A stretch of 64,000 nt of DNA from Loxodes magnus (Eukaryota; Ciliophora; Karyorelictea; Loxodida; Loxodidae), in contig CAMPDV010000089.1 of the NCBI GenBank assembly GCA_946699065.1, positions 682,001 through 746,000 of the forward strand. The letters run 5' to 3'. The notes under the pieces were generated by a model that saw only the letters and a program-made list of their open reading frames with translations, was not told the DNA's origin and ran no database searches. Both the position numbers and the translations under genes were made by a program. This document shows, one piece after another, positions 21,553-60,275 of the stretch. Position 1 is the first letter of the stretch, and each line of letters begins with the position of its first letter.

Positions 21553-24500
21553 TTAACCTAAATATTTAATGTCTGCCTTGCTATTTATACTTAATTTTGT
21601 TCTCTTAAAGTCCTAACTCTTTTCCTCATTTCTTTGTTAGATAATGGAAATAAAATCGTTGATGCGCATTCCACTTGGAGTTTCAAGCCAATATTTTCTA
21701 TATGATCTTTCTTAGCTATTATTTATATGCGCTGTCTTTACTTATTTCAATCCAATAGGTTTAATTGTGATTTTATAATTAGACATATCAGACCCAGATT
21801 GATTCCTTTGACGTGCATCATCGTAAAGAGTTTCTCAAACAGGCCTTTCTCTTGGAATCTAAATTTTTTACTTTTGAGTTTTTTAAGCAGATTATTGACG
21901 AAGGGGTTTTGCTCCAGCATATTAAACAGCAGATTTCAAATATCTATAAATAAGCTGAGTTGAAACATCTTATTTTACTAAATATGCTTTTAAGCCTTTT
22001 TGCTACTACTCCGCAAAATGTTCTGCTCTTTTGAGATAATGTCTAGCTTTTTATATCTACGATGATTTGAAATATAGCGTTTCACACAGATGTACAGAGT
22101 TCTTAATTAGGTTATGAATAGGATAATTAGCAAGATTGAATGAAACATCCCCCCACATATTTTCATTAAACTGCAAATTTCTATCATTCTAAAAGAAAGT
22201 TATTAAGGCTATTCCCAAGAACACCTAAAACTAACTTGGTTCTAAGAGTCTAAAATTTTGTAAATCAGTTTTTTCTATTAGTTAGCTTAATTTTTAAACT
22301 CTGGATCGATGGTCCAAATCTTCCATTTATTCCTAATTTGATAAGTCGCTCTTATCTATTTCATTAAAGCTTAAATCTTATTCTAAATTGTTAAAATTAG
22401 CTCCTAAAAGCATTTTTTTACGAAGGTTCGACTAAGATCTATTTATAATAAGCTTTTTTTGAGAGTTAAAAGTTGAAAGCTTTTTCATAGACTAAGAATA
22501 GAAGTTTTTAAGGAGCTTTTTCTAATTTGTTTATATAAAACTAGCATGCTCTTATATCTTTTCTGTCATCTACTTATGAACTTTCGCTATTTCATTAATC
22601 AACTATAATCCTCTCTCTCTAAACTATTTATGATCTTCCTCAGTTTAATCATTCTCTTATTTTATAAGATTAGCATTTTTAACAGTATTTGGTTAAATTG
22701 ATTTCGAAGTTAATATTTAACTTATTTTCTACTCTAACGTATTTTAAATATAGCATTAATCTTATGATATTTTTTGCAACTCCAAACTCATAGCAAGATG
22801 CTTTTAGAATTTTTACTTTTAAGTTTCTCCATTATTGTCTAGAAACTAATCATATTTTAGATCTTTTTTCACTTGAATTTTTCTTACCTCTCTCTATGTT
22901 TACTACTAAATAATCTACTGCTTATTCTGCTCATTTTGATTCTATACTTGCTAACTAGCTTTAATTATTTGCTTTTTATTTTGAACTTCTTTTCTAGCAC
23001 CTTTTATTTTTCGTGAATTTTCTTATTTTTACAATAAAATTTATTTTTGTTCTTTTTGAAATAAGTCTTTCTCCTCTATATTTTTTTTTAAAGGCATTTT
23101 TTTTAATAGTGGGTTGACTTGCTCCATAGCAGTGAAAGTAAGACAATTTTCTTTAATTTTTTCTTTTTAGTCTATTTTTTCTTTTACTTTTACCTTTTAT
23201 TCTATTTTTTATTTTTCTTTTATTTTTACTTTATCTTCTACTTTTACTTTTCCATTTTATTTTTCTTTTATTTCTATTTCTTCTTTTAGTACTTTTTTTA
23301 CTTTTTCTTTTTATTCTGTTTTTACTTTTTCTTTTATTTTTACTTTATCTTCTATTTTTGTGTTTCCATTTTCTTTTTCTTTTACTTCTATTTCTTCTTT
23401 TAGTATTTCTTTTAATACTTCTTTTCCGTTTTCTTGTTATTCTGCTTTTACTTCTTCCTTTACTTCTTATTTTTTTTTAATTTTAGCTTCTACTTCTTCT
23501 TTTAGTACTTTTTTTTCTTTTTATTTTTAATCTCCTTATATTTTTCCATTTACTTTTAACTTATCTTCTACTTTTGCTTTTTCTTTTCCATTTTATTTTT
23601 CTTTTACTTCTATTTCTTCTTTAATAACTTCTTTTGGATATTCTTTTTATTCTGCTTTAAATTTTTCTTTTACTTTTTCTTTTACTTCTATTTCTTCTTT
23701 TAATACTTCTTTATCTTTTTCTTCTTTTACAATTTCTTTTTCTATTTCTTCTTAAAATAATTATCGAGATTCTTCCAAATTTACTTATTAAGAAATTTTG
23801 TTAATATTATGTTTTTCTACTTTAACTTAACTAACATTTTTTTCCTCACTTAAGTTAAAAATATCTACTGGCTTATTTTATTCTATAAAAATCTCATTTT
23901 AGTTCAATTGTTGAGTTTCTTGATGCTTTTCTTCATTATTATAAGTCTTTTCAAGTTGTATTTACTCTTAAAAAATCATTTAATTATGTACTTAGTTTAT
24001 TTCTAAACAAGAAGATTATTCATTCATTTCTTAACTTTATGGAATTTCTTCTTCGAGCTTCATCTAAGTAGATTCTTTTTCTATTTATTCCTCTATAATT
24101 TAGAAAGGCTAAGAAGTTTTGATTTCTTCAGATATTATTGATTTGGATAGTATGTAATCAGTTTCAAAGCTACTTTCATTGCTTGTTTAGAAAGATTCAT
24201 CCACAAGAGATGCATTCTAACTAATCTGTTTTAGATTTAAATTTAATTTGGTTTGAATCTTTTCAAGTATCTAGTTATTTACTTAGAATTTATAGAAATA
24301 AAGCTGTATTATTAGACTCTCCTCTATAAAATCTGGTGATAAACCAAGTTCGCAAATGATAGCTTCGCTTAAGTCTAATTTTTTATTCTATTAAGATGTT
24401 CTTTTAATATTCTAGATACTTTAGAAAATAGATTATCTTTGTTATTTTTCTTCCACTCCTGCGAGAATTGTAAATCTACGCTATATCATTATTTTCTAGC

Positions 24501-50309: not shown

Positions 50310-52962
50310 TAAATATTTACCTTTTTAATTATTTTATTTCTAACGCTTTACAGTTATTGAAAAAGGAAAATTTGCATTTATCTTTTGAGTAAGAAAGTAA
50401 ATTTTTATTCTTAAAATGAGTCCTTATTAATACCCTATTTAAATATTACTCTCTATTTACCAATATAAAAATTTCAAATGGAATATATGTTAAGAATAAT
50501 AGAAGCATGATTGAGGGATGGCTAATAAATAAAGGTTGTCTTAATAACATATATAAAGTCTCATTATTGCAACTTTATATACTTATATTGTAGTCAAATA
50601 CAGCTAATAGTAGTTATATTCAAAAAACTCCAATTAGTTAATATTTAATTAATTATTATAATACTGCATCCATTATTTATGCAAAATTCTTAAAACTTTC
50701 ATTATTTTATTAAGAAAGAACATCATAGCCAAAACTCAGAACGAAGCTTAATAATATAACGATCACTCGAAATTTAATTTCATGGTATCATTAAAATTCC
50801 TAAGTGGAGGCCAAATTAATATTATCCTATTTGAGATTGATTATAGCTTAGATTGAAGAATATATGGGTAACAGGGATCATATTTACATAACTAAAATAA
50901 ATCTAAGTATAAATTTAAAATATCTATGAACTATCATTTTTAAAGAGTTATAAAATAATAAAAGCATTAGAATATAAAGTAGTTTTAGAGAATTAGTTTA
51001 AACTTTCTCAAGCTAATTAGATATTTATTATTACCATCATTCTAACTTATTTTTAAATATTATTACTAAAATTAAAGTTTACTACTAAAAGGTTATTATA
51101 AGCTTTAGAAACTTTAATCCTCTTAATAATCTTTTTATTACACATAATTTTTAAATCAAATCTTAGAAGAAAATATTAAAATCTATGAATTTAGATGATA
51201 TTTTATTAGTTTTCGCTATATTTCCATTATGACTAAAGAAACATATTATTACCCTTGTCAAAATATTAACTTTCTAGTCCCTAAGTTTCTCGATTATATT
51301 TAGCCAGATAAAATAAATATCAAAATATAGTAATATAAAAGCTAATTTTCATATTATATTTATAAAATTCTTTCTAACTAATTACTAATATTCAAATGAA
51401 TTATATTCTACATTAATTTATATATTTTTATAATAACTAGCCTCTTAGTAAAATTACACTTTGATATATCTTTTAATAGATTACTATTATTAAATAAATT
51501 CCTTATTTAAATTATGAAATAAAACAGTTTAGATTAATTACTTTACTTACCTAATTTCTTTTAATCGTCTATAATTAGTTAGTTTCTTTATACTTGCTCT
51601 TACATTTAAAATTATATAAATCATTTTCTTTCATACTCATATCAATAGTTAATTAGCTACTTTACCATTCTTGGAAGCTTAGGGAATTATAATATTTCTA
51701 TTTTTAACTTTTTTTTGGACTAAAAATTGCTTTTGATTTAGTAAATTAGTTGTTTCAAAGCTGTTTGCAAATATTTAATTACTTAATTAGAAAACTGTTT
51801 TTTAGTTCAATATAATGTATATTATAAAAGTTATAAGTCTCAAAGATTATTAGATATTATTTTATTAATGATCCTAAGATTCAGGCTTAGTAGATGAGAA
51901 GTAAAGAGCCTAGCTATATTATATATATTAAAAACAAAGAAATTTCTTTTCTTATTTAGTTTAGGAAGCTATTTTAAGATAATATGGGTATTTTAATTGA
52001 TTGCTTAAGTCTCATTACACTTTTACAATAAACATTTCAAATTAATTAATTTGGCTGTTTTTAAAAAAGGCTGAATAAATTAATAGTAAATGCATTATCT
52101 TTTCTATTTAGAATCTGATTTTTAAACAATTTTAATTAACCTTTTGACTGAATAAAGCGAAACAAATCGAAATAAGTTAAGAGCTGAGCTATTTCCTCAA
52201 TTTGATCTGGATTATTATAAAGTGCAATTACTACTTTCCTAACTTCTCTAAGTTTTACATTTTTACTGATGCTTAATATAGAAATTTTTAGTAGCAAAAA
52301 AAGTATTTAAGTTATTCTTTTTATGAAAATAAAATAAATACTTATTTAAAAATATTTAATAAATATTCATCAAAAAATATAGAAATTTTCACTTTATTTG
52401 CTTGAAATTATCTATCACTAAATTAAATTAAAAAAATAATCAAATTTCTAAACTAATTTTATATTTATAATATTATTTAACAAATAGACTAAATAAAAAT
52501 TTCTGCTTCTTAACATATGCTAAGCAAGTTAAAAAATGAATTTTATAATTATTTTATTCTATAGTTCCTGATATGGTATCTAACTATATTCGTTTGATAA
52601 ATTTTTGTAAATTTTATTTTTAACTTTATTGTTGGTCTTTTTTAGATATTTTTATTTTGGATAATTTATTTTATTTAAAATATTGCAAATTATATATTTT
52701 TATTAAGTTTATCTGATTATTTTAAGAATCTGGATAAATACATTTATCTCAAGTCTAAATTAATTTTTAATAGATCATTAATAGATAGAAGTAGATTCAA
52801 AATTTTTTATTTAAATTCCACTTTTATGGAAATAAAAATTATTAGCTTAGTTTCTTTTAAAAGGGTTATAACTAGATTATAGTAACTTTTTTATGAGTAA
52901 TTAATTTTTAGTATAAGAGTTATAAGTTGATTTCTCCTCACTTTTCAATAAAGTCCTTACTT
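50310..52962. other. AT-rich region downstream of the micro-exon array
   Basis: About 2.65 kb of AT-rich DNA. The periodic AG|NNN|GTAA signal of the neighbouring array stops abruptly at about 52.96 kb and does not continue here. No gene recognised. Confidence 0.5.
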
Positions 52963-55900
52963 TCACTTTTATTAAAATTCTTACTATCTTTAATTTAATT
53001 TGTATAATACCAGCTATAAAATATAAAATTTTACTTTCTTGAATAACTTTTCACTTACCAACTTTTAAAATGAATGTTATTACACTCTGTAAATTTTATT
53101 TTTTACATTCTATTTATTTTATAATTTTTACCCTCTATAAGCAATTAAAAATTACACTCTTGAACAAGTAGATCTTTTACATTCTTTAATTTTACAAACT
53201 TACTTTCTAAAAATAAATTTGTTTGCTGTCTTTTTATTTAAAAGAATACATTCTAAAAAATAAACTCTTACCAACTGTAAATTGTTTATATCTGGTTACC
53301 CACTAATTAATTAAAATCTTTTACTTTCTAAATAAGTTAAAAGCTTACCCACTATTAGAGGAATTATAATCTTACAAGCTAAGATATTTTAACAGCAATA
53401 CTTTCTTGTTATCATTTAAATTTATACTCACTACAAAGTTTTGAAAATTACTCTCTAAAGATGATATTAAATACCATCTAAAGATTAAATAAAATTACTT
53501 TCTATAAATCTTTAAAGAATAAACATTCTGATGTAAACTTTAAAATTTACTTCCTTGAATAATAAATTACTTACTGACTAAAATAAATGATAATAGTTAC
53601 TTTCTAAAAATATTAACTTTAATACTATCTGCAATAAAGTAATTTTCATACTTTCTTTTAAATTATAATGTAATACTAACTAAATATTCGAGTTATTACT
53701 TTCTTTAATAGTTGTTATATACTCCCTATATTAATTAAATAATATACCCCCTATTTCACTCATATCCTTACAATCTAAGAATTTAAATTTTTACTCTCTT
53801 AATGTTGATAATTTTACTCCCTGAATTTCTTATGTTTAATACATCCTAAACTTATTAAATTTTACCTCCTAAATATAAGGATTTTAACTTTCTAAATAAA
53901 TTAGAGCAATACTTTCTTTAAGATATAAAAAGTATTACGATCTATATAAAAAATTAAACTCTTACTTTCTATATTGTATTATTAAGAAACCCCCTATTAA
54001 ATTTATAATTTACAGACTACAATTTTAGCTTTTTACAATCTAAAATCTTATATTAATACCCTCTTTTGCTTTGTTTTTCTTACCTCCTTAAAATTAGTGG
54101 CATTACCTCCTTTAATATTTAGACAGTTTACACACTTTAAATTAAATTTCTTACACTCTAACTCATTAAAATTCTTGCTTGCTGTATTAGATATTATACT
54201 TTCTAAATTTAATTAAAGTCAAACGTTCTAAAATATCTTAGTACTTACATTCTATATAAAAGTATAACTCTCTAATTGGCTTATTATTTTACGAGCTATG
54301 TAATTTAATTTTATTTACACGCTTCAATTTTAAGATTTCTTACAGACTATATCATTAGAATACAGCCTGAGTTATAAACTATTATTACATACTTCGTATT
54401 AAAGATCTTACATGCTTTTTTATTTATTTACCACCTTTATTAAAGCTTTACAGCCTTTATATTAAAGCCAATACCACCTTTATATTTAAAATGTTACAGA
54501 CTTTAATAAAATGTATTACACACTTTATATTAATTATATTACAAACTATATCAAAATTTTACCAACTGCTTTTAACATAAAATTACAGCCTTTTTTAAGC
54601 GATTACAACCTTAATAAATAAATCTTACATTCTTTATATTAAAACTGCTACCACCTTAAATAATAAAAATTACGCTCTTTCAATTTTAATGTTTACCGCC
54701 TTTTAACTTAAGATATTACATTCTTAATATGATTTGAGCTTACAAACTATGAAATAAAGTACTTACTATCTTATTTCAATTTTTATTACATGCTTTTAAT
54801 TAATATGTTACTCACTTAATATAATCTACTTACAAGCTTTAATATTAAACATCATTACGGCCTGCACTATAACATTTTACTTTCTTATAATTATTTATTT
54901 TACAAACTGTAAATTAAAGTATTACTCACTTCAATTAAATGCTTTACTTCCTAAGATAATTTATCTCACAGCCTTCAATTTTATATTTTACCCGCTTAAA
55001 ACTTAAAATTATACCAACTATTTCACTAAATAATCTTACACACTTTTTAAAATTTATCTCTTACAAGCTTTATAGGTGTTAAAGCTCACCAACTTGTATG
55101 GTTTTAATGAATCTTACTATCTTTATAATTTAAATGATTACTAACTTTAAACATTTGAATAGTTACTAACTTTAATATCAGCTAATTACTTGCTGAAATA
55201 TTTAAATTATCTTACTTTCTATAAAATTAATTCTCCTACGACCTTTTATTTTACAAATTTACCCACTTTTTATAGAATTTAATTACATAGCAGAACTAAA
55301 ATTTAGCTAATTTTTACTTGCTTTTAATTATTAAAGTTACGAACTTTTGTATATCAAAGCAATGTACAAGCTATAATTTAACTTCTTACTAACTAAATCT
55401 AAAATATTGTACCAACTTAGAATATAAAACTAAGTTACGGCCTATAAACATAATCAAAACCTACATTCTTTTGTATTTAATGCTTACTGCCTATAGATTT
55501 TAAATCTATTTACAACCTTAATTTAGTTAAAACTTACCATCTTAAATTTTTAAGATATCTCACTAACTAGAGAATTTAGATTAATACATCCTTTGACTTT
55601 CAAACATTTTACTTCCTTATAATTATAAAAATTACTTCCTACATAAATAAAAATCAATTACTTTCTAGAATTTATAAACTGTACACTCTAATGATTATTT
55701 ATTTTCAATCTTACTGTCTAAAAATTGCTTAAAAACTTACATGCTTTAGTTTTTTAAAGTATTACTTTCTGTAATAAAATAAAAACTAACTTTCTTAAAC
55801 ATTTAAAATTATTACTTGAGAAAACTTTAATTATCTCAAATTACTAGCTGTGACTATTTAAATTTGTACGCTCTTTATAAGTTTATTATTATTTACTCCC

Positions 55901-58436
55901 TTGTAAATTTTTAAAGGTATTACAACCTTTATATATTTTAGAAATTACTTTCTTTAGCATTTAGCAGCTTACTTTCTAAGTATTTTTATTACATACTCAC
56001 TATAAATATTTAAAATATTTTACACCCTTAGCTATTTATATCTTCTTACATTCTTTAATCATTTTAATCTTTACTCTCTATTAAATTTCAAATCATTTAC
56101 TGTCTATAAAGTAAAATTCGTACAACCTTAATATTAGCAAATACATCCTTTAACCTTTTAGAATTTACCAACTTTTAATTAATTTATACAGTCTTTATCT
56201 TTCAAATGAATTACAGACTTTAGAATTAATAAACTTACAACCTTAGAGTAATTGATTACAATCTATTTTTATTTATTTACGAGCTAAAAATAAATTCTTA
56301 CTAGCTTTATCTTTTAAATATGATACAGTCTTTAAATAAGACTATCTTACAATCTTAATTATTAAATATCTACTATCTTGAATAAAGCTTGAACGTTTTA
56401 CTTTCTTAAATATTTAAATATCAAACTTTCTTTAAAGAATATCAATACTTACATGCTGTAATTATTGAATGAGTCTTACTTTCTATAATTTAAACATATT
56501 ACCACCTTTAATATTTAAATTAGCTACAAACTTTTATATTTATATTTCTTACAAACTAGGATATTTTAATCTTTACGACCTTAAAACTAAATTATCTTAC
56601 AAGCTTTATACTTTAAGACTTACATTCTTTTTTAATTTTAATGTTTTACCGCCTACATTATTTTAAATGCTTTACAAGCTATAAGTATTTTATTGCTTTA
56701 CTCACTATGTTTAAACTATTTACCACCTACGCTCACAAAAGCATACAGTCTAAATAACTTTATTAATTACTTTCTTTATATAGTTTAATTACCAACTTGA
56801 ATGTTTATCATCTTACAACCTATTTTAAAATTTTCACAGCCTGAGTTTATCAAGTTACAAGCTAGAACTATAAAAAATTACAAACTATATAAGTTAAAAC
56901 GCTTACTTTCTATAAAATATTAAGGCTTACATTCTATGCAAATTAGTATTATACTTTCTTGAATTTTATATTATTACAACCTTTAATTTTAAGGGAAATA
57001 CAACCTATATTTAATTTTTACAAACTAATTCATAGCTTTACATTCTGTATATTTGGTTATAATATACTGCCTAAAATAAATAGATTATACATCCTAATGT
57101 CTTAGTTATTTTACCTTCTTTAAAGAAGATAACTAACTTACTGCCTTTTAATTAGAATATTACTAACTAATTTTAATTATAATACTCTCTTTTATCATAA
57201 AAATTTACCTATCATAATTGTTTCATACTCTCTATCTTAGTTTTCTTACTTTCTGATTTTAAGAATAACCTTTTAAAATAATTTTAGTTTACATTCTATA
57301 ATATTATATCTTACCTCCTTGATATAAAGCATCATATTTCATCTTACATTCTGTACAATTTAAAAAATCTAACCAGCTTAAGAAATTTAATTGCTACTTT
57401 CTATCAAGATTGATAGCATACCTTAATATAAAGATGATACCTTTTGTAAATTGATTAATATTATACTTCCTAAATTAAAACTTGCATCCTGACTTATAAC
57501 ATAAATACTTTCTGCATGTTATTTACTTACTAACTTTAATGCTTAATAGTTTTACACACTAAACTTTAAGCACTTACTATCTTAAAACTAGAAATTTTTA
57601 CTTTCTACGATTATTATTTCTTACATGCTTTTATTTTATGTTATTATTACCACCTAAAATACTTAATTTCTTACGTGCTTTAGATAAAGTCTCTTACAAG
57701 CTGTTAGCTGTAGAAAATTTACCACCTAGAGTTATTTAATTTCCTCACAACCTTATCTTATATTTTTACAAACTAAAGAATTTAAGACTTACCATCTATA
57801 AAATCATCTTTTTTACAAACTTAAAATAAAATCTTTATACCACCTATTTACCATCAATGCTTACAAGCTTTTAATAGAACAACTTACGACCTTAATAATT
57901 TTAACTTGGTTACAACCTTAATTTTAATTATGTTACATACTATATAAAATCTTACAACCTAACGTATGAAAATTTCACAGCCTATAGAATTAGATAATTA
58001 CAAGCTTATTTAAATTGATTACATACTATAATTTATGAACTTACAGACTGTTTATTATAAAGATTACATTCTTATAATTTAATTTTTACATTCTGTAAAT
58101 TATGAATTACCATCTAAAGTTAGTCTTTACATCCTTAAAATATAAAGGTATACTTTCTGGTATTGTAAAATATTGTTACAGTCTATAAATAAATATCTTA
58201 CAACCTTCAGTTAGAATGCTACCTTCTATCCGTTCCTTAGACAGATCAATTTCTATAAAATTATTGCCTTTACATTCTTTAGAGGCATAATAAATTACCT
58301 TTTAAATATAGTGCTTATTTACTTTCCGCTATTTTTTAGGATACTGAGTTAGCAAATACTGTCTGTTAACGGTAAATTATTATACATTCTAAAATGATAG
58401 AAAAATTACCTTCTATAATAAAATTAAATTCCATAC

Positions 58437-58448
<12 letters not shown>
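52963..58448 (-). CDS. Array of about 215 three-nucleotide micro-exons (putative polytopic membrane protein)
   Basis: On the minus strand the sequence reads AG|NNN|GTAA every 19-31 nt (mostly 20-27) for 5.5 kb. Each NNN is a different triplet; the flanks are a 3' splice site (AG) and a 5' splice site (GTAA or GTAT; less often GTAG, GTGA, GTAC, GTTT, GTTA, GCAA). The implied introns (about 16-28 nt) match the 17-22-nt introns of neighbouring genes. A few exons are longer but still multiples of three: 58323-58328, 58223-58252, 55816-55824 and 55287-55295. Read as codons from high to low coordinate, the triplets give hydrophobic blocks (SYLAVYVVLVFMFVVLHVHK; VNVALFCSVAVHYAS) separated by charged loops (KKHTSKEEDLM; KIKKEDGRIGGK). 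The last exon begins with TGA (52963-52965), a natural stop. Exon-position GC falls from first to third base, as in codons. Family unknown. The reading phase is inferred, not proven. Confidence 0.7.
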
Positions 58449-59646
<1,198 letters not shown>

Positions 59647-60014
59647 TTTAAATTTAATAAAAATACAACTTAAATAAAAATACCAGAACAAAAAAAATGT
59701 AATAAATAAAAAACAAAGCATCTAAAACATTTCTATATATATTTAGCAAAACAATTAATAAATATCATTTTAATACTTTAATGTCCTTACACAAAGCTAT
59801 TTGTAATTTATACTATTACAATCTACGATTTTGAGTCGTTTTAATTTCTTTATTATAAAAGAAATAATTTATTCTAAATAATTTATTAAATATAGCTAAT
59901 ACTAAAATATTAAAGATTTATTTAAAACTTAAAATTAAACTATTTTTATTTTAATATTAAATAAAAAATTGCTTATATAATCAATCTACCTACTTTAGAA
60001 TGAAAAATTACATT
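59647..60014. other. AT-rich intergenic region upstream of the kinase
   Basis: Short, very AT-rich stretch between the kinase start and the end of the small basic protein gene, both on the minus strand. No motif seen. Confidence 0.4.
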
Positions 60015-60275
60015 TTATTTTAGATTAAATAATGATTTTCTTGGAGAGTTTCTGCCTTTTTTAGCAAATTTATAATCATCTTCTTATGGTCATTCTTTCT
60101 TTTTAGTTCTACTTACTTTACTAAACTTCTAATTATTTTATAGTTCATTGCGAGTGATTTTGCGTTTCTCTGTCAATTTTTATTATGTAATTTTTAAAAT
60201 AAAGGGATATTGATTTGATTGGATTATATAGTTATAAGTTCTTATTTCTTTAGCATTGCTTAATTTCAGTCCCAT
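60015..60275 (-). CDS. Small basic hypothetical protein
   Basis: An 86-residue protein from MGLKLSNAKEIRTYNYIIQ to SPRKSLFNLK, ending at TAA (60015-60017); no in-frame TGA lies nearby. The second half is strongly basic (LTEKRKITRNELQ, FSKVSRTKKKEWPQEDDYKF), which suggests nucleic-acid binding or nuclear localisation. One TGA is read as Trp. Composition is far less AT-rich than the surroundings, supporting a real gene. Family not recognised. Confidence 0.5.

Follow-up and report, generated by a model that had tools for sequence, protein, structure and literature searches.

Arrays of serial three-nucleotide exons as a probable coding tail of kinase and ubiquitin-like genes in Loxodes magnus

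The array and the gene that carries it

The window discussed here is the whole 64,000-nucleotide (nt) stretch of Loxodes magnus contig CAMPDV010000089.1. Its minus strand holds a gene with a protein kinase domain and a ubiquitin-like (UBL) domain, directly followed by an array in which nucleotide triplets alternate with short GT..AG introns (Table 1). The original prediction had read the recurring AG|NNN|GT of this region as serial 3-nt exons of a single odd gene. The serial structure itself is confirmed. From its sequence, the array appears to be the tail of a kinase-UBL gene, and such arrays occur in a gene family.

On the minus strand between 52,963 and 58,448, AGNNNGT is found 227 times, compared to a mean of 34.1 and at most 50 in 200 dinucleotide shuffles. 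Strict chains of such units reach a length of 57 there and of 5 at most in the shuffles, while the plus strand of the window contains no AGNNNGT chain of at least 6 units. A local parse, for which GT/GC..AG ends and intron lengths of 14-34 nt were required, gives the exons and introns of Table 1, with a mean intron length of 20.8 nt and longer exons of 9, 9, 21, 30 and 48 nt. A differently scored parse returns 211 exons of 3 nt. As both parsers favour 3-nt exons, more weight is carried by an unscored count of AG N(k) GTAA spacings. Summed over eight array stretches, this amounts to 615 for k=3 and to 62, 40, 3, 8 and 6 for k=0, 1, 2, 4 and 5, respectively (k=0 and k=1 take in overlaps with triplets such as NAG and AGN), with 0-7 per stretch for each k from 6 to 15.

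The GC content of the window triplets is 0.38/0.28/0.24 over the three bases, that is, highest in base 1 and lowest in base 3, as originally described. The kinase next to introns of about 20 nt was likewise found (PF07714 upstream), and sequence and conservation argue for 3-nt exons with such introns adjoining it. GTAA opens 160 of the 226 introns. With their GT..AG ends and lengths of mostly 16-25 nt, the window introns resemble the spliceosomal introns of Loxodes. In passages of the genome paper, L. magnus introns determined by RNA-seq have a mean length of 19.3 nt and a mode of 17 nt, and 93% are no longer than 25 nt (PMC11441545); the term 'microexon' does not occur in those passages. In the arrays called young below, the introns are longer (27-29 nt).

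The series had also been said to end at a TGA. That TGA is present, but in the frame of the UBL domain (the UBL frame) it belongs to the 5-nt exon TGAAA, and the in-frame stop is found at 52,940-52,938. Zero-length AG|GT junctions also occur in other arrays (named here by working labels for loci, L, and contigs, C), namely in 13 of 46 cases in L018 (1211-2310) and 21 of 122 in L010 (3174-6174). These could be recursive splice sites or parts of longer introns.

Table 1. Features of the array-bearing gene in the window
Feature	Position	Strand	Basis
Protein kinase domain, N-terminal part	59164..59637 (ends approximate)	-	PF07714, E 4.1e-35, inside open reading frame (ORF) 59161-60075; assumed to be the same gene, with a putative join to the next exon
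Exon with kinase C-terminal part and UBL domain	58438..59127	-	PF07714, 4.8e-18; PF00240, 7.7e-11
UBL domain	58438-58665	-	Placed by tblastn; one base over afterwards (T at 58437)
Array: 226 GT..AG introns, 216 three-nt exons, 4 zero-length junctions (AG|GT), 5 longer exons (lengths divisible by 3)	52966..58436	-	Pattern count and parse
First array intron, GTATGG...ATAG, 24 nt	58413..58436	-	Parse; phase 1 if the UBL frame holds
Last micro-exon TGAAA, 5 nt	52961..52965	-	UBL frame; would complete ATG AAA; read from sequence
Last intron-like piece GTAAGGACTTTATTGAAAAG, 20 nt, GT..AG	52941..52960	-	Read from sequence
TGA stop in the UBL frame	52938..52940	-	Read from sequence

An inverted duplicate of the kinase-UBL-array gene (L049, C89:612000-619500) is located on the same contig. 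The two arrays lie ~116 kb apart, and identity between the copies is 99.05% over 6.2 kb. The copies correspond in all 226 introns and in every exon length, and GT and AG are unchanged in 226/226 introns: none of the 904 GT/AG letters differs, where about eight changes would be expected at the intron-interior rate of 0.9%. Differences amount to 14/648 in the 3-nt exons vs 28/3123 in the intron interiors (Fisher p 0.011), to 17/765 in all array exons, 8/1100 in the upstream exon and 11/683 in the downstream flank. Strong positive selection in this pair was considered and dropped on comparison with the downstream flank. A similar inverted pair, L009/L010 on C16, shows 13/264 vs 15/1655 (p 2.6e-5), with 12/526 downstream, after exclusion of 93 differently labelled columns. 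In L011/L012 the values are 64/195 vs 78/999 (156 columns excluded), inflated by array parts without one-to-one alignment.

Elsewhere in the window, dense tandem repeats, including 6-nt TTTTCT-like units, were seen at 23147-23750.

A family of arrays, with near-uniform introns and variable triplets in the young ones

The UBL domain, which the original prediction had overlooked, as it had the duplicate and the near-constancy of the introns next to variable triplets, scores 42 bits with PF00240 in the window (Pfam cut-off 25.4) and is a ubiquitin-family domain. A PF00240 match above the cut-off also precedes the array in L013, L018, C1256, L014, L016a, L016b, L050, L051 and L053; L011 lies exactly at 25.4, and L012 (24.1 bits) and L017 (25.1 bits) just below. 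A kinase is located upstream of L010 (9.0e-30). The stretches read for L010 and L015 show no UBL, and L015 has no identified upstream domain. Both L013 and L018 combine a B-box above the cut-off with a RING below it, in one ORF with the UBL in L013 and on separate ORF pieces in L018. RING is above the cut-off in L012, and the RING/B-box matches of L014 and L017 are weak. Neither domain was found in the window gene.

Eleven arrays were located at ten other loci, picked where pattern matches clustered among the matches listed. A search with the window UBL added three more, namely L049 and L051 (the two best matches after the window's own) and L050, chosen since a pattern match lay there. Altogether, 6/16 examined matches of this search have arrays; no array lies within about 1.3 kb of the other ten. 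By eye, most of these ten resemble ubiquitin closely, but two of the array-less matches, L056 and L063, are divergent UBLs. With the C1256 UBL as tblastn query, 150 of 985 candidates were scored (all E <= 4.1e-21). Arrays are present in 16/16 members of this subfamily that were fetched, six of them top matches or matches of an intron search and ten hand-picked lower in the list. In one of them, L082, the contig stops after 8 triplets of the array. Arrays were likewise seen in ten further copies of the L053 gene. Hypervariability was looked for in the eleven near-identical L053-type genes and was not seen: the exon series is kept save for a few single-base changes and one junction in L071. The notion of a single odd gene can be abandoned.

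As a measure of abundance, a pattern of two triplets around a 20-nt GTAA intron was matched 1278 times in the genome and its reversed control 93 times. At 8.9 such matches per array (15 arrays counted), the 1278 matches suggest in the order of 130 arrays with ~20-nt introns, a rough and biased estimate as most arrays were chosen by match clusters; arrays with 27-29-nt introns are hardly counted by the 20-nt pattern. When the window's spliced product was compared with the whole genome by tblastn, nothing was returned, not even the window itself, which illustrates how easily such tails are missed.

With PF00240 and the L018 UBL as queries, mainly (poly)ubiquitin-like matches were obtained. On C537, C32, C2553, C1577 and C930 many ubiquitin-like matches stand in tandem, often about 1.06 kb apart. 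Eleven UBL matches exactly 1854 bases apart form a tandem array at C120:243612-262367.

In young arrays the units are strikingly uneven in their two parts. L011 contains a block of some 37 units whose introns are almost the same, and whole groups of three and four units also occur there in duplicate. In C1256, an identical 27-nt intron is found in 26/43 units of a block, while their triplets differ by 0.659 per site. Over six pooled paralogs (210 units), the mean pairwise difference is 0.706 for triplets vs 0.048 for introns, and in seven genes with a second intron type (93-101 units) 0.58 vs 0.02-0.05. In old arrays the two parts are closer, with 0.704 vs 0.432 in the window and 0.678 vs 0.462 in L013. 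Per-site change ratios are 23:1 and 12.6:1 with filters that drop intron variants and 8-10:1 and 3.7-7.9:1 with looser ones. As this ratio saturates for triplets, pairwise differences were relied on instead.

C2, C469 and C1798 share the intron of C1256 and have largely other triplets, with 10/880 differences downstream between C1256 and C2. C1256 and C3150 differ at 0/306 positions downstream and 1/286 in the UBL exon, and yet their tails are several whole units apart. The last five exons (ATC GTG AAT GGG GAC) are the same in L053, C1256, C2175, C3150 and C469; C2 has TAT for AAT, L080, L086 and L089 end in GAT for GAC, and C1798 was not read to its end. The introns between these five exons are unlike between L053 and C1256. 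Visual inspection of the young tails in the UBL frame suggests that Y, Q, N, D and W are abundant.

A side observation concerns the UBL exon, which differs at 13/287 positions between L061 and L074 (C1256) and L077 (C2), compared to the few downstream differences given above. The UBL may also evolve fast.

The 26 identical introns around unrelated triplets would fit an origin in which copies of one intron were inserted every 3 nt into a coding sequence that already existed, in the manner of introner-like elements. Such an origin of a spliced and coding array is rather unlikely. The tails of the closest paralogs are longer or shorter by whole units, and the exact copies of the C1256 intron among the matches listed are all on contigs that carry UBL-family members (C469, C1256, C2175 and C3150). 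With up to 2 mismatches, this intron has 934 places in the genome, about the first 100 of which were listed. In addition, a whole-genome tblastn with two array products revealed no convincing relative with contiguous exons (0 at E <= 1; 2 at E 0.93), although the search had no positive control.

Reading frame and coding potential

The original prediction equated each triplet with one codon. The kinase-UBL exon of the window, however, ends with one base over (AAT T|GT). One base over is also found at the first parsed intron of L011, L012, L013, L014, L016b, L017, L018, L050 and L051, and L049 has the same leftover base. With exons of 3 nt, one base over places every intron in phase 1, so that a codon consists of base 3 of one triplet and bases 1 and 2 of the next. 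The triplet reading is then probably off by one base, and each intron would split a codon.

Support for the UBL frame is drawn mainly from paralogs. In four of them, it reads QNDFKERVLKKYWKYFEASQE / QNDFEKRVLKKYWKYFETRNE / QNDFKKRAMKKYWQYFETREE / QNEFIKRVLKKYWKYIEMREE, including TGG/TGA exchanges, in which either codon means Trp if TGA is read through. Pairwise codon differences in this frame are 27 synonymous and 75 nonsynonymous with a mean BLOSUM score of +0.28, compared to 17/80 and -0.62 in the triplet frame and 17/83 and -0.34 in the third frame. The comparison used hand-picked exon blocks and left out the variable middle, the exons separating the two 5' blocks and, in the 3' block, L017. 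Codon log-odds are best in the UBL frame in 13/19 arrays, the window included (-4.3 vs -9.6 in the triplet frame), and 11 of these 13 also contain fewer TGA than in the triplet frame. The 19 arrays are not independent, several being close paralogs, and for L010 and L015, where the stretch read has no UBL, the UBL frame stands for base 3|1,2 alone. The codon training set contained no TGA, so TGA codons are penalised. For the longer exons of 12 arrays (608 codons), log-odds are -1.6 in the UBL frame, -54.3 in the triplet frame and -123.9 in the third, and taken alone they favour the UBL frame in 8/12 arrays. It is also the sole frame in which both C1256 and L053 meet TGA within five codons of the array. 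With codon usage from the window ORFs alone, the frames are not separable; the window's own sequence argues weakly for the UBL frame, and its phase is inferred.

A number of findings weigh against a coding array with phase-1 introns, and several of them would suit the same spliced array read in the triplet frame, with introns in phase 0. Six of the 19 arrays do not favour the UBL frame (L013, L015, L016a, L016b, C2 and L018, the last nearly equal), most clearly L013 with log-odds of 16.0 in the triplet frame vs 4.7. The longer exons of the window slightly favour the triplet frame (1.4 vs 0.3). Between window and L049, 5/16 changed codons are synonymous in the triplet frame vs 2/15 in the UBL frame. 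The predicted hydrophobic blocks do exist in the window, but in the triplet frame only; in the UBL frame the same stretch is cysteine-rich. Given the leftover base, the four-paralog conservation, the codon log-odds and the TGA positions, the triplet frame is nonetheless considered doubtful. L016a, L053 and the C1256 family lack the one base over at the first parsed intron; on the assumption of an unparsed 36-41-nt GT..AG intron upstream, phase 1 would be restored in L016a and C1256.

The remaining difficulties do not bear on the frame alone. Many arrays have codon log-odds below or close to zero even in the best frame, and since the best score of the window is itself negative, its codon usage hardly stands out from background. 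Eight array products in non-triplet frames gave no Pfam match above the cut-off, nor did two products and part of a third in the triplet frame. Introns of length 3n are not depleted (417/1229 in 12 parsed arrays), unlike the published L. magnus introns. In the window pair, the 3-nt exons have changed faster than the introns, whereas their rate does not clearly exceed that of the downstream flank. Longer exons interrupt the arrays of C2175 (1), C469 (2) and C1798 (2), L009/L010 differ at three splice sites or unit edges (an acceptor and two unit edges), and the L071 junction is altered.

A non-coding array was also weighed. In this case, a satellite-like tract of splice-like motifs would lie in the 3' UTR (untranslated region) or in one large intron, and the protein would end soon after the UBL. 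Read unspliced, the UBL frame runs to 58,246, and very young arrays do resemble minisatellites. On the other hand, the GT/AG letters are unchanged in the duplicate, the spacing is almost only 3, and conservation in the four paralogs is protein-like in one frame. Moreover, L053 and C1256 share the same five end exons with unlike introns in between, and a large intron would depart from the published lengths cited above. A non-coding array is therefore regarded as the least probable of the explanations considered.

Proposed origin and comparison with known systems

Overall, there is good reason to regard the array as a coding C-terminal tail of the L. magnus kinase-UBL gene, spliced into 3-nt exons with phase-1 introns and growing by unit turnover. 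In the proposed mechanism, the spliceosome would remove the ~20-nt introns by intron definition and join the 3-nt exons, each codon being put together across a splice junction. The arrays would grow and shrink by gain and loss of whole units of intron plus 3 nt, probably through slippage or unequal exchange between similar introns. As whole units are always gained or lost, the frame would never shift. Exchange between paralogs is a possible source of new triplets. In young arrays, near-uniform introns with differing coding triplets would leave paralogs with conserved array ends and a variable middle. Unit turnover is the likeliest growth mechanism, although it does not by itself explain the variety of triplets or the origin of new ones, which also counts against the proposal. 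Candidate reasons for the variety are selection for diverse tails, exchange among the members of a large family, constraint on the introns and targeted mutation.

Splicing might also be combinatorial. Almost all internal exons are multiples of 3, so any skipped set would stay in frame and remake the junction codon, and each gene could give many tail isoforms. This possibility follows from the anatomy of the arrays and the near-identical splice sites of the young ones, and it is given a modest share of credence. A variable tail on kinase- or RING-UBL proteins may, as a guess, serve recognition or interaction. More speculatively, and with a similarly small chance of being right, the arrays could form a codon-scale diversity generator: a large family of possibly hundreds, in which near-constant introns act as recombination arms and 3-nt exons as variable letters. 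Gene-level and possibly transcript-level repertoires would then be available for the recognition of self, prey or parasites. With split codons, each unit exchange or skipped exon would in this scheme create a new junction codon and leave the frame unshifted.

If the arrays are spliced as their sequence implies, a run of hundreds of 3-nt exons is difficult to reconcile with exon definition, and it has to be asked how the spliceosome handles ~226 introns with splice sites 3 nt apart. Current ideas of how genes are built and spliced would be stretched. The near-identical introns, variable triplets and zero-length junctions of the family provide natural experiments on minimal exon size, recursive splicing and splicing order. 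They also suggest a route by which proteins could be changed one codon at a time, with introns as spacers.

Schistosome-type micro-exon genes (MEGs) hold most of their coding sequence in micro-exons and have long introns. In the window gene, the kinase and UBL parts lie in ordinary ORFs, and the introns measure ~20 nt. Schistosoma MEGs are nevertheless the nearest precedent in the literature found: they share very short exons (3-81 bp, with introns up to 5 kbp; PMC10526429) and encode secreted, variable proteins (PMC10526429, PMC10399815, PMC4350168). Among the literature matches listed, in a search thin on subscription papers, no report of serial 3-nt exon arrays was seen. Unlike in the MEGs, nearly all exons here are 3 nt long, with >200 in a row and introns of ~20-29 nt. 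Codons are probably split, and the tail stands on kinase/RING/UBL proteins; the kinase and UBL domains suggest an intracellular protein.

Exons of one nucleotide have been reported in Arabidopsis and Fusarium (PMC4674806, PMC12940212). They are smaller still, but as far as the abstracts show, they are single and not arranged serially. Introner-like elements and intron gain by tandem duplication supply new introns that are copies of one sequence or arise through duplication (PMC4457414, PMC4974935); here, in contrast, near-identical introns recur every 3 nt inside one gene family.

At the protein level, L013 and L018 combine their B-box and RING-like matches with a UBL. TRIM proteins carry RING, B-box and coiled-coil, and the array genes are unlike them in their C-terminal UBL and micro-exon tail. 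Coding minisatellites show turnover of unit copy number that always stays in frame. The arrays are like them in this turnover, but splicing would remove about 90% of each unit, and it is the intron that stays constant.

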